Assembly (NCBI GenBank): GCA_019459485.1
Contig: JAIBEZ010000059.1
Location: forward strand, 1 to 45,690
Length of the DNA stretch: 45,690 nucleotides
Source: Prolixibacteraceae bacterium
Lineage (GTDB): Bacteria > Bacteroidota > Bacteroidia > Bacteroidales > Prolixibacteraceae
Reading direction: 5' to 3'
Shown: one piece after another, positions 21,442 to 39,198 of the stretch
How the letters are laid out: each line of letters begins with the position of its first letter
Numbering within the stretch: the stretch's first letter is position 1
Position numbers and translations under genes: made by a program
Notes under the pieces: model-generated
Told to the model about the DNA's origin: nothing
What the model saw: the letters and a program-made list of their open reading frames with translations, nothing else
The model's database searches: none

Positions 21442-22671
21442 ATGGCATTGATTAACGAGAATTACCTGAAACTTCAGGCGGGGTATTTGTTTCCCGAAAT
21501 TGGAAGAAGAGTGCGCGAATTTGCAGCGGCCAACCCGGATAAAAATATCATCAGAATGGGGATCGGCGATGTTACACAACCGCTGGTGCCGGCAGTAATA
21601 AAGGCTTTCCACGAAGGCGTTGAAGAATTGGCCAACGCTGCCACCTTCAAAGGTTACGGACCCGAACAGGGCTACGATTTTTTGCGCGATGCCATCGCTT
21701 TGAACGATTACCAAAACCGCGGAGTTGACATTTCCGCCGACGATATTTTCGTATCAGATGGTTCGAAATGCGATACCGGAAACATTCAGGAAATATTTGG
21801 CGCAGGCAACAAAATTGCGATTTGCGATCCGGTTTATCCGGTTTATGCAGACACTACCGTTATGTCGGGGAAAACCGGCACGATGCAAAGCAATGGATAT
21901 TTCGACGGAATTATTTACATGCCCTGCAACGAGGCAAATGGTTTTATTCCTGAATTGCCCACCGAACGTCCCGACCTGATTTTCCTTTGCTATCCGAACA
22001 ATCCGACTGGAACCGTTGCAAGCAAAGAAGAACTGAAAAAATGGGTGGACTATGCCCACGCCAATAAGTGTATTATTCTGTACGATGCAGCTTATGAATC
22101 CTACATTACCGACAATTCGATTCCCCGTTCAATATTTGAGATTGAAGGCGCAAAAGAGGTTGCGCTCGAATTCCGCAGCTTCTCGAAAACCGCTGGTTTC
22201 ACCGGAACCCGCTGCGCATTTACAGTTATTCCGAAAGAACTGAAAGCTTACGACAGTGAAGGAAATGCCCATCAGGTAAAACCGCTTTGGAATCGCCGCC
22301 ATACCACCAAATTCAACGGAGTTTCGTATCCGGTGCAGAAAGCGGCTGCTGCGATTTATTCCGAAGAGGGTAAAAAGCAAGTAAAAGAAGTGGTTAATTA
22401 TTACCTGGAAAATGCCCGAATCATGCTTGAAAGTCTGAAAGAAACCGGCTTCACAGTTTTTGGCGGAGTGAATGCGCCTTATGTGTGGGTTAAAACTCCT
22501 GACAGCTTGAAATCATGGGACTTCTTCGATAAGCTGCTGATTGAAGCCAATGTGGTTGGTACACCAGGCTCCGGATTTGGCCCGTCGGGCGAAGGTTATT
22601 TCCGCTTTTCAGCATTTGCCGACCGGGCCAATGTGCTGGATGCAATGGAAAGAATTAAAAATCTGAAGTAA
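21442..22671 (+). CDS. dapL: LL-diaminopimelate aminotransferase
   Basis: PLP-dependent class I/II aminotransferase of 409 residues that converts tetrahydrodipicolinate directly to LL-diaminopimelate, the short lysine/peptidoglycan route found in many Bacteroidota. Family-typical blocks are [62 protein letters not shown], the NNPTG motif in YPNNPTGT, and the PLP-binding Lys in [13 protein letters not shown]. No other lysine-pathway gene is adjacent. A palindrome just after the stop (22679-22730) may act as transcript end. Confidence 0.95.
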
Positions 22672-22678
22672 AGTTTTC

Positions 22679-22730
22679 AACCACGGATTTCACGGATCTA
22701 CGCAGATTAAAATCTGTGACTCCCGTGGTT
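22679..22730. repeat. Inverted repeat after dapL
   Basis: AACCACGG (22679-22686) pairs with CCGTGGTT (22723-22730), with an inner palindrome CAGATT-AA-AATCTG (22703-22716). It is of the ACCACGGATTTCACGG type of dispersed repeat and could stabilise or end transcripts from dapL and from the convergent ORF6N gene. Confidence 0.6.
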
Positions 22731-22746
22731 AATTTTCACCCTAAAA

Positions 22747-23282
22747 TCAGTTCTGGTTTTTATATCCTATTGGCTTGCGGGATCTAACTTCTTCTTGTTT
22801 AGTGATCAGTTCATCAAGATAATTAAAAACAAGCTCAATGTTCTTGTCCTGATTTTGAAGCTTTTTCTTAATCTCTTCGATTTCTATCTTCAGGCTTAAA
22901 GTATCTGTCAACATTTGCCTTATACGCGTGAAGATTCTCATGATTTGAATGTTGACACTTATTGCTTTTTGCTGTTCAACACGCTTGAAAGCATCAAAAC
23001 TCCATGTTCAGTGAAAGCCATTGGTGCATAACGAGAACCACCCCAACTTGAGGTCGCAAATTGCGACCTCAAGTTGGAATATTCGTCGTCTGTCAATTCA
23101 AACATGAAATCCTCCGGGAACCTAAACAGATTGCGCTTGACAGCTTCTTTTAACCTTTTGGTTTCTACACTATATAACTCTGCTAAATCTCTGTCAATCA
23201 TAACTTTCCGATCTCTGATCAGATAAATTTTATCCATGATTCGTTCATCAGGAATCAAAATACCGGCATTTTCTATTGTCAT
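22747..23282 (-). pseudogene. ORF6N-domain gene with a one-base frameshift
   Basis: Two adjacent frames are the two halves of one ORF6N-domain protein (a phage-antirepressor-like, KilA-N-related family). The 5' part (23282 to 22959; MTIENAGILIPDERIMDKIY...) has the ORF6N core VMIDRDLAELYSVETKRLKEAVKRN, then RFPEDFMFELT, AFTEHGVLMLSSVLNSKK, Q and a stop. The other frame carries straight on with AISVNIQIMRIFTRIRQML and a coiled coil ending at 22747. One extra A in the run at 22966-22970 (five T on the plus strand) would join them as LNSKKAISVNIQIMR, the family-typical sequence, for a product of about 179 residues. A 17-bp-arm palindrome lies in the frame at 23043-23077. The frame opens earlier (23315), but the ATG at 23282 is preferred. 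Confidence 0.8.
23043..23077. repeat. Perfect 17-bp-arm palindrome inside the ORF6N reading frame
   Basis: Arms of 17 bases with a single central base; the core is GGTCGCAAATTGCGACC. On the coding (minus) strand it encodes SNLRSQFATSSW. The same core occurs upstream of the gene at 23321-23353. Confidence 0.9.
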
Positions 23283-23320
23283 CGGGTGAATATATTGTGA
23301 TAAGCAATAAGTCAATATTA

Positions 23321-23353
23321 AAATTGGAGGTCACAATTTGCGACCTCCAATTT
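23321..23353. promoter_or_regulatory. Palindrome upstream of the ORF6N gene, candidate operator
   Basis: Sixteen-base arms with one mismatch around one central base, 39 bases upstream of the ATG at 23282. Read on the same strand as the in-gene palindrome, the core is GGTCGCAAATTGTGACC, one base different from the in-gene copy. Both the position and the match suggest an autoregulatory operator, but this is inference. Confidence 0.65.
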
Positions 23354-23416: not shown

Positions 23417-23989
23417 CTAAAAATTATCCGCTTCGATTTCGAAATAAGCTTGCGAATGTTCGCAAACAGGACATTTCAAGGGTGGTTTGGCCGATTCGTG
23501 CAGGAATCCGCAAACACGGCATTTCCAAACAACTTTTCCTTCGCGCTCAAATACTTTACCTTCTTCGAGGTTCTGGTACAATTTGCGGTAGCGTTCTTCG
23601 TGGGCTTTTTCAATTTTTGCAATCGACCGGAACAATAATCCGATTCTTTTGAATCCTTCTTCGTCGGCAATGCGTGCAAATTCAGGATACAATTCGGTCC
23701 ACTCTTCGTTTTCGCCTTCAGCGGCAGCTTTCAGGTTTTCCATTGTGGTTCCGATTTTTCCGGCCGGATAGGTGGCTGTAATCTCTACCATACGACCTTC
23801 CAGTTGTTTGAAAAACTGTTTGGCATGTGAACGTTCGTTCTCTGCAGTTTCCAAAAAGAGGGCGGCAATTTGTTCCAATCCTTCTTTCTGTGCAACTTTT
23901 GCTGCAAACTCATAACGGTTGCGGGCTTGTGATTCGCCTGCAAATGCTTTCAACAGATTTTTTTCTGTTTGCGATCCTGCTAATTCCAT
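23417..23989 (-). CDS. Rubrerythrin
   Basis: A 190-residue peroxide-reducing di-iron protein of anaerobes and microaerophiles. The N-terminal erythrin four-helix bundle shows the Glu/His iron ligands in AFAGESQARNRYEFAAK, TAENERSHAKQF, ARIADEEGF and AKIEKAHEERY. The C-terminal rubredoxin domain has the CxxC pairs CRVCGFLH and CPVCEHSQ. It reduces hydrogen peroxide using electrons from rubredoxin or NADH-dependent reductases and suggests an oxygen-sensitive or facultative lifestyle. It lies upstream of the ORF6N gene on the same strand, with the palindrome between them. Confidence 0.95.
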   Translation of the reverse strand: MELAGSQTEKNLLKAFAGESQARNRYEFAAKVAQKEGLEQIAALFLETAENERSHAKQFFKQLEGRMVEITATYPAGKIGTTMENLKAAAEGENEEWTELYPEFARIADEEGFKRIGLLFRSIAKIEKAHEERYRKLYQNLEEGKVFEREGKVVWKCRVCGFLHESAKPPLKCPVCEHSQAYFEIEADNF

Positions 23990-33550: not shown

Positions 33551-34363
33551 TTATTTCAGCATTTTGCGGTTTTCAACATTTGCGAGTACCTGCATTTGTT
33601 GTATGGCTATTTTATTCAGACGAATCAAACGCTCCCGTTGAGAAACTCCATCGTTAATAAGCACAGCGTTTATGTTTTCCATGTTCGAAAGGCATATCAA
33701 CTCGTTGATATTTGAATAATCGCGAACATTCCCTTTCAGTTCGGGGTTTGCTTCTCTCCATTGTTTGGCGATAATGCCGTAAAGCGCCACATTGAGCACA
33801 TCGGCTTCGCTGGCGTAAACCACCGATGTTTGCTCTTTGGTCAATTCGGCAGGTATCAAATGTTGTTTGATGGCATCGGTGTGTATGTGGTAGTTTATTT
33901 TTGCCAGTTCTCGTTTGGCCGTCCACCCGAGTTGTCTTTGCTCTTCTTCTTTCAGACGTTGGAATTCATTTATCAAATACAGCTTAAACCGAACGCTGAT
34001 AGCTGAACCAAATTCAAATGCAATATCTTTATGTGCATAGGTACCACCGTATTTCCCCTTTCTTACAATTACTCCAACGGCATTCGTCTTTTCAATCCAT
34101 TCCGAAACGCTTAATACGAAACTAGCTAGCCCCGCCTGAGATTTAAAGTGGTCAAATTCGACCACTTTAAAATTGGGATTATTAATCTGCTCCCAAGTGC
34201 CCATAAATTCAAGTGTATAACGGTTCCTTAGCCAGTTTTTTATAATATCGGCTGCCCGGCTTTCACTTTCTTTGGCATTTGCCATATCCGTCAGCGAAAT
34301 GTAATCTGTTTCGTTGATTTGCAGGATGGTTACATCGGTTTGTTGTACATTGATTTTTGCCAT
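33551..34363 (-). CDS. KilA-N domain protein
   Basis: A 270-residue protein with an N-terminal KilA-N DNA-binding domain (residues ~12-125): YISLTDMANAKESESRAADI, IIKNWLRNRYTLEFMGTWEQ, the GKYGGTYAHKDIAFEF signature and SVRFKLYLINEFQRLKEEEQ. The C-terminal helical region (KINYHIHTDAIKQHLIPAEL ... VALYGIIAKQW) is typical of the Bacteroidota branch of the family. Such proteins are thought to be phage-derived regulators or antirepressors. The reading frame contains a perfect 12-bp-arm palindrome (34142-34171). The gene ends next to a fragment of its own 5' end and follows the nuclease-like gene by 18 bases, so the two could share a transcript. Confidence 0.88.
   Translation of the reverse strand: MAKINVQQTDVTILQINETDYISLTDMANAKESESRAADIIKNWLRNRYTLEFMGTWEQINNPNFKVVEFDHFKSQAGLASFVLSVSEWIEKTNAVGVIVRKGKYGGTYAHKDIAFEFGSAISVRFKLYLINEFQRLKEEEQRQLGWTAKRELAKINYHIHTDAIKQHLIPAELTKEQTSVVYASEADVLNVALYGIIAKQWREANPELKGNVRDYSNINELICLSNMENINAVLINDGVSQRERLIRLNKIAIQQMQVLANVENRKMLK
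34142..34171. repeat. Perfect 12-bp-arm palindrome inside the KilA-N frame
   Basis: TTTAAAGTGGTC (34142-34153) and GACCACTTTAAA (34160-34171) with a six-base loop. On the coding strand it encodes FKVVEFDHFK. No second copy is seen elsewhere in the window. Confidence 0.85.
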
Positions 34364-39131: not shown

Positions 39132-39198
39132 TTCCAAGTTTCAAATTCCAGGTTCCAAGTTGGGCGTCCACTTGGAACCTGGAACCTGAAACTTGGAA
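39132..39198. repeat. 29-bp-arm palindrome between aroB and aroA
   Basis: Arms at 39132-39160 and 39170-39198 agree at 27 of 29 bases around a nine-base loop. The arms are themselves built of short words such as GGTTCCAAGTTTC. The structure would fold into a long hairpin in the aroB-aroA intercistronic RNA. Confidence 0.9.

Follow-up and report, generated by a model that had tools for sequence, protein, structure and literature searches.

A palindrome conserved as DNA within the coding sequence of ORF6N-domain genes

The coding sequence of the ORF6N domain was found to harbor a palindrome that is maintained as DNA beyond the requirements of the encoded protein. Among genomes of the order to which the analysed DNA belongs, a palindrome scoring at least 9 was present in 94 of 106 full-length ORF6N domains, compared with 0.9% of synonymous shuffles. 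An earlier note on this DNA had proposed examining whether the palindrome encoding LRSQ.AT is more conserved in ORF6N genes than codon choice predicts, and this is the case. A palindromic site which is conserved as DNA within the gene's own coding sequence is what would be expected of an intragenic operator. Judging from these comparisons, the palindrome may well be a sequence-specific binding site in double-stranded DNA, located where its own gene encodes the DNA-binding domain and used by a protein as a brake, a reading that we adopt tentatively. The ORF6N product itself is a plausible candidate for the binding protein.

The ORF6N gene of the window and its two palindromes

The window, i.e. 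the whole stretch of 45,690 nucleotides that was analysed, contains an ORF6N gene on the minus strand between genes for a class I/II aminotransferase (21442-22671) and a rubrerythrin (23417-23989). The following features were assigned to this gene:

22959 to 23282, minus strand: ORF6N-domain reading frame with the ATG at 23282 and the stop at 22959; the PF10543 match lies on the longer frame 22959-23315
22747 to 22958, minus strand: C-terminal part of the ORF6N gene, out of frame (MRIFTRIRQ...IGYKNQN), continuous with the domain in the orthologues L555 and L569
23043 to 23077, unstranded: coding palindrome with perfect 17-bp arms (23043-23059 and 23061-23077) and one central base (23060), at approximately codons 69-80
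23052 to 23068, unstranded: core of the coding palindrome, GGTCGCAAATTGCGACC
23321 to 23353, unstranded: upstream palindrome with 16-bp arms (23321-23336 and 23338-23353), one mismatch and its centre at 23337

The earlier assignment of the gene to ORF6N was borne out by an HMM match to PF10543 with an E-value of 4.4e-36 and 123.5 bits, the curated cut-off being 27.8. The reading frame of the domain is broken after approximately 107 codons (at about 22960-22980) and the C-terminal half follows in another frame; a separate ORF at 22747-22941 in the ORF list lies within this out-of-frame part. The frameshift may reflect recent decay, a sequencing error or recoding. The frameshifted gene still possesses the perfect internal palindrome, which encodes the NLRSQFATSSW region of the domain. 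The upstream palindrome resides 39-71 bases before the ATG and its centre is 277 bp away from that of the coding palindrome. Its core is nearly the same, and its outer arms differ (AAATTGG...CCAATTT). Arms, positions, spacing and cores of the two palindromes were all found as previously described.

Both palindromes were thus confirmed, and they greatly exceed what chance would produce. A search of the whole window for the 17-base core with up to three mismatches recovered only these two sites (four strand matches, 0.29 expected), and only seven palindromes of the window scored 11 or more, among them the coding and the upstream ORF6N sites and one within a KilA-N gene. In 2000 synonymous recodings of the ORF6N ORF, the best palindrome scored at most 11, compared with 17 in the actual sequence. 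Elsewhere in the window, an imperfect inverted repeat, AACCACGGATTTCACGGAT...ATCTGTGACTCCCGTGGTT, is located at 22679-22730 directly behind the aminotransferase gene, and a similar stretch matches in the orthologous locus L554. A long palindrome with a score of 22, TTCCAAGTTTCAAATTCCAGGTTCCAAG..., occupies positions 39132-39198.

Conservation of the internal palindrome in ORF6N genes

Palindromes were scored outward from a centre whose loop could measure 0-5 bases; each complementary pair counted +1 and each mismatch -2, and the best sum was taken. For the null, the protein was kept and the codons were redrawn by pooled usage, with 20 shuffles per gene in the family tests. ORF6N genes were collected from genomes of the same order by use of the HMM, and from genome records of many phyla, chosen by title, as well as from viral contigs by means of peptide patterns lying outside the palindrome. 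At least 60 of the 149 genomes of the order contained an ORF6N match. In other phyla, 72 of 80 genome loci (the best 80 among the matches listed) exhibited an internal palindrome scoring at least 9, as did 52 of 71 viral loci, with 1.8% and 0.6%, respectively, in the shuffles. HTH_3 loci analysed as a control reached this score in one case out of 30 (1.3% in the shuffles).

Within the order, 89 of 100 palindrome centres fell on residues 55-59 of the ORF6N domain, after the motif FMF.LT..E. In an AlphaFold2 model of the full-length ORF6N protein L208 (mean pLDDT 83.7), the palindrome is predicted, by our own mapping, to encode the last part of helix 62-72 and, after it, the loop of lower confidence that precedes strand 85-88. 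A Foldseek search with the predicted structure gave no match at E <= 0.001; the best relatives were weak ones, namely the DNA-binding domains of Dachshund (probability 0.87, E 0.23) and Ski-like (0.82, 0.34) proteins. The proteins L035, L063, L080 and L199 contain two of the segments in tandem.

Co-variation of the arms was studied on 231 genes, from each of which the best palindrome was taken, selected for A/T at +-2 and collapsed to 112 non-redundant sites, so that the +-2 pair is fixed by construction. The pairs from +-3 to +-12 were of the Watson-Crick type in 97-110 of the 112 sites, with 2-4 pair types, versus means of 36-89 for reshuffled partners; since the sites had been picked as best palindromes, these proportions are raised and the synonymous shuffles constitute the fairer test. 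The peptides vary while the palindrome is kept, as in N-L-RSQ..T-S-S-W and N-W-RSQ..T-S-N, and in CQFGT, FQIGIS and SKFST, which go along with other cores. Homologues thus alter amino acids yet retain the palindrome, which upholds the earlier note in its proposal of a constraint on this gene to encode a palindromic DNA site. Preservation of the amino acids with loss of the palindrome, named there as one of two outcomes that would speak against it, is the opposite of what was seen across the homologues.

In 17 of the 231 genes the core was even read in a second frame, where it encodes V-T-N-C-D and similar peptides instead of R-S-Q-I-A-T. When the segment was masked and the nearest frame-1 gene was determined by the protein body, this gene possessed the same half-site at -5 to -3 in 14 of the 17 cases (shuffle mean 5.0, maximum 12 in 10,000) and the same +-3 pair in all 17 (shuffle mean 13.3). 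In the locus L105, two genes lie side by side whose bodies do not differ over the compared columns; each of the two frames is represented by one segment, and the core is the same except for the central bases. The link between protein body and core could partly be due to common descent of the DNA; either way, the DNA has been kept and the amino acids have not. Since the two arms co-vary and the core persists in a different reading frame, we concluded that the constraint acts on the DNA and not on the protein. Conservation of the protein alone, which would make the palindrome a by-product of a conserved peptide, could appeal to the common occurrence of LRSQ.AT, but it is ruled out by the synonymous shuffles (0.9% versus 94/106) and is also at odds with the second frame, the non-coding copies and the amino-acid changes that preserve the palindrome. 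We regard it as next to impossible.

The earlier note had also expected a very stable RNA hairpin, which is right as a prediction: folding of the single strands as RNA yielded predicted values of -33.6 kcal/mol for the coding and -21.7 kcal/mol for the upstream palindrome. The former value would suit a hairpin in the messenger RNA that limits translation or serves as a processing site. Such a hairpin would favour G-U pairs, however, and the 80 mispairs counted at +-3 to +-12 on the coding strand comprised 15 of the G-U type and 19 of the A-C type. As no preference for G-U was detected, the palindrome is better explained as a DNA site than as an RNA hairpin, and the latter appears very improbable.

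Several features count against an operator. The gene of the window is frameshifted, and the predicted structure has but weak relatives among the solved DNA-binding domains. In coding and non-coding sites alike, moreover, pairing between the arms persists to about +-12/13 while the letters vary, which exceeds the need of a simple core operator. Complementarity without sequence identity over this length, in coding and upstream sites, would rather be expected of a structural DNA element, i.e. a hairpin or cruciform formed in single-stranded or supercoiled DNA, or of arms equalised when template switching corrects imperfect palindromes, with selection on a short core only. The existence of non-coding copies and of tandemly duplicated segments agrees with such an element. 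On the other hand, the centre is sequence-specific, with C:G or A:T at +-3 and T:A at +-6 in 97 of the 112 sites, and this holds in both frames and in the upstream sites, whereas a pure hairpin would need no particular centre. Furthermore, decayed loci lack an internal palindrome scoring at least 9 (L554, L556) or at least 7 (L561). On balance, we judge the structural explanation to be unlikely.

Copies outside the coding sequence and orthologous loci

Upstream sites were counted only in genes with 300 bp of upstream sequence. Of 257 ORF6N genes, 29 had a core palindrome in the 280 bp preceding the domain; the corresponding counts were 3 of 243 for a control window at a greater upstream distance and 15 of 244 for the stretch immediately after the gene. 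Among the 29 upstream sites, that of L065 lies inside a neighbouring ORF6N gene and that of the second gene of L060 is devoid of the usual core. A core-bearing internal palindrome was found in 214 of the 233 ORF6N genes that were also checkable upstream. Upstream sites occurred in 22 of these 214 genes and in 6 of the 19 genes without an internal site, a class that includes degenerate palindromes below the filter (Fisher p 0.016). In L163 and L169, the internal site has left no trace and the upstream sites are perfect.

These data bear on the question, raised in the earlier note, of whether each ORF6N gene has a matched upstream copy, and on its suggestion that one protein may bind both sites and loop the DNA. 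In its favour, both sites exist in the window and in the orthologues L555 and L569, and upstream core palindromes outnumber those of the control window (29/257 versus 3/243). In addition, the outer arms (+-9 to +-13) of 23 upstream sites resembled those of their own internal site with an identity of 0.648, versus 0.495 for random ORF6N sites (largest of 500 draws, 0.635). The cores (+-3 to +-5) of the same 23 sites, however, were no closer to their own internal core (identity 0.688) than to random ORF6N sites (0.683); this comparison excludes the second-gene site of L060 and one of the two from L169. Moreover, 228 of the 257 genes did not possess the upstream site, and the spacing varied, the distance from the centre of the upstream site to the domain ranging from 60 to 217 bp. 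Because upstream copies are few and match their own core no better than random sites, looping between matched sites is unsupported and, in our estimation, highly improbable.

For genomes of the same genus, we compared the region that follows the aminotransferase gene. L555 harbors an intact ORF6N orthologue with the same internal palindrome as the window gene. The orthologue in L569 is also intact; its upstream site, start and C-terminal half are nearly unchanged, but the DNA-binding domain is represented by a divergent allele, which contains another palindrome, CTTGAAATTCCAAATTGGAATATCAAG. As the domain and the internal palindrome were replaced and the upstream site was not, domain and internal site have changed together. 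The upstream palindrome is present in the orthologous loci L555, L569 and L556, the last of which has retained it in spite of the decay of its gene. Since the upstream cores are unmatched and the upstream site of L569 stayed behind when the domain was replaced, the two sites need not be read by one and the same protein.

The 21-base core with at most one mismatch was found at 43 places in 27 of the 149 genomes, and its reversed control at none. Inspection by hand placed 27 of them in or overlapping listed ORF6N matches, two in or beside ORF6N remnants, four just upstream and ten elsewhere. Eight of the latter are intergenic by open frames of at least 80 codons, and a search of the ten places with our own HMM at E 0.01 gave only a weak match at L010 (12.7 bits). 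These ten of 43 places count against a site belonging to its own gene. A dispersed element of the REP/RPE type was also considered and is unsupported, since 33 of the 43 places belong to, adjoin or closely precede ORF6N genes or their remnants.

Closely behind the stop codon, the Flavobacterium ORF6N genes of L210 (centres at 16, 58, 100 and 160 bases) and L166 (82 and 124) are followed by arrays of palindromic segments, two to four in number, that differ from one another; these segments resemble alternative versions of the internal one. In L307, L163 and L178, a palindrome follows directly after the end of a phage-integrase gene, identified by Pfam in L307 and by resemblance in L163 and L178, and in the latter two the ORF6N gene comes next after the palindrome.

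If the internal palindrome is a protein-binding site as tentatively proposed, it would be occupied by the ORF6N product or a sister ORF6N protein in the form of a dimer or a larger oligomer. The bound protein, about 74 codons into the gene, would hold back the RNA polymerase, resulting in a negative feedback independent of any particular promoter. By this means, a mobile regulator gene could carry its own brake wherever it lands. The second copy near the promoter, present in about one gene in nine, would then be an optional addition.

Related gene families and known systems

The KilA-N gene of the window was analysed in the same way. Its features are:

33551 to 34363, minus strand: KilA-N gene with a PF04383 match at 33947-34345 (E 6.4e-20); the start codon is our choice
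34142 to 34171, unstranded: coding palindrome of this gene, TTTAAAGTGGTCGAATTTGACCACTTTAAA (given for the minus strand), encoding NFKVVEFDHFK

The palindrome is centred on GAATTT/AAATTC, and its score was reached by 0.6% of 1000 synonymous shuffles. A score of at least 9 was attained in 18 of 24 KilA-N loci (24 of 25 matches used; null 3.1%) and in 14 of 30 Bro-N loci (null 2.8%). On viral contigs, the corresponding values were 28 of 32 unique KilA-N sequences (from 42 of 44 loci; null 2.0%) and 8 of 13 Bro-N sequences (null 0.4%); some of the peptide patterns by which the viral KilA-N, Bro-N and ant loci were fetched overlap the palindrome and may favour some types. The KilA-N palindromes are quite unlike those of ORF6N, being mostly centred on GAATTC, and were also present in Staphylococcus phage EW and in all three Streptococcus satellite phages examined. 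In L354, two further KilA-N-like segments (NNPLFNVTEFSSIKN, FNCGEFAIIEI) were noticed in the open frame before the start of the KilA-N gene.

The ant gene of phage P22 (L397) contains CAACTATGTCGATATCGACATGGTTG at about codons 59-68. A co-varying palindrome is also seen in its relatives L407-L486. Of 59 distinct relatives, 53 exhibited in this region a perfect palindrome that measured 14 bp or longer, compared with 6.7% of the shuffles. Six perfect 14-base versions with co-varying pairs were found, mostly in close relatives with 14 distinct 26-mers. At the general threshold, by contrast, ant was hardly enriched (at least 9 in 3 of 59, versus 1.8% of the shuffles), so that the evidence for ant is weaker than that for ORF6N and KilA-N. 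Named antirepressor genes reached the threshold in 4 of 11 cases, and the Phage_pRha family had matches in only 4 of 118 genomes, a number insufficient for this analysis.

These findings raise the question of a rule for the whole superfamily, according to which ORF6N, KilA-N, Bro-N and P22-Ant genes would carry, in a variable and presumably DNA-contacting loop segment, the very site that this loop reads. We consider such a rule possible but rather doubtful. As site and reader would share the same bases, specificity and operator (or self-tag) would change in one event.

Palindromic repressor sites inside coding sequences are known from gal OI and lac O2, which are single cases; unlike them, the ORF6N site characterises a whole family, in which it sits in the gene of the regulator itself, and co-varies. 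Palindromic DNA in frame inside proteins is also familiar from the Rickettsia palindromic elements. While the latter are inserted into unrelated genes, 33 of the 43 places of the ORF6N core fall within, next to or shortly before ORF6N genes or remnants. At the level of titles and the opening lines of abstracts, no report on internal palindromes in ORF6N, KilA-N, Bro-N or P22 Ant genes was found. The passages on ORF6N and palindromes in PMC6591296 concern CRISPR and gene tables, and in these passages an internal palindrome is not mentioned.

By analogy, the closest precedent is the pair of BstA and aba. According to the report by Owen et al. (2021, PMC8585504), BstA of prophage BTP1 is a defence protein that possesses a KilA-N-like domain. 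Within its gene lies aba, a 63-bp element that acts as DNA and not as RNA or peptide, is variant-specific and confers cognate self-immunity. The resemblance to ORF6N consists in a short DNA element which is held by the gene itself, overlaps the coding sequence and varies between alleles or variants. The start codon of bstA lies within aba, whose ends bear direct CCCGCC repeats and which is not palindromic, whereas the ORF6N site is a co-varying palindrome in a variable segment of the domain and is found, in the window gene, at about codons 69-80. In two bstA genes scanned for an internal palindrome, none was detected; this speaks against membership of BstA in the group, although the logic is still close.

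The internal palindrome could accordingly be imagined as a similar self-recognition tag, marking the DNA that bears the gene, so that the protein would spare its own element or be titrated by it and each variant would read only its own tag. Apart from the BstA precedent, this would agree with the variation of the internal sites among alleles, with the site that moved with the domain in L569 and with the residence of some ORF6N- and KilA-N-type genes in phages and satellites. It is weakened by the two bstA genes devoid of an internal palindrome and by aba not being one, by the immediate neighbours of the window gene, which encode an aminotransferase and a rubrerythrin, and by a literature search in which a defence function of ORF6N genes was not found in titles or the opening lines of abstracts. 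All in all, we deem a self-tag rather improbable.

Should the tentatively preferred binding site within the gene and the more doubtful rule for the superfamily prove true, a large group of phage-type regulators would possess a hidden second code inside their DNA-binding domains, and the odd variability of one stretch of these proteins would be explained. The binding sites of many uncharacterised regulators could then be read directly from their own genes. The palindrome of P22 ant, which co-varies among relatives, makes the question testable in classic material, albeit on weaker evidence than in ORF6N and KilA-N. If the sites are indeed encoded by their readers, the module would stay matched when it is shuffled between genomes, and a way would be shown by which a mobile gene may keep its regulator and the site together.
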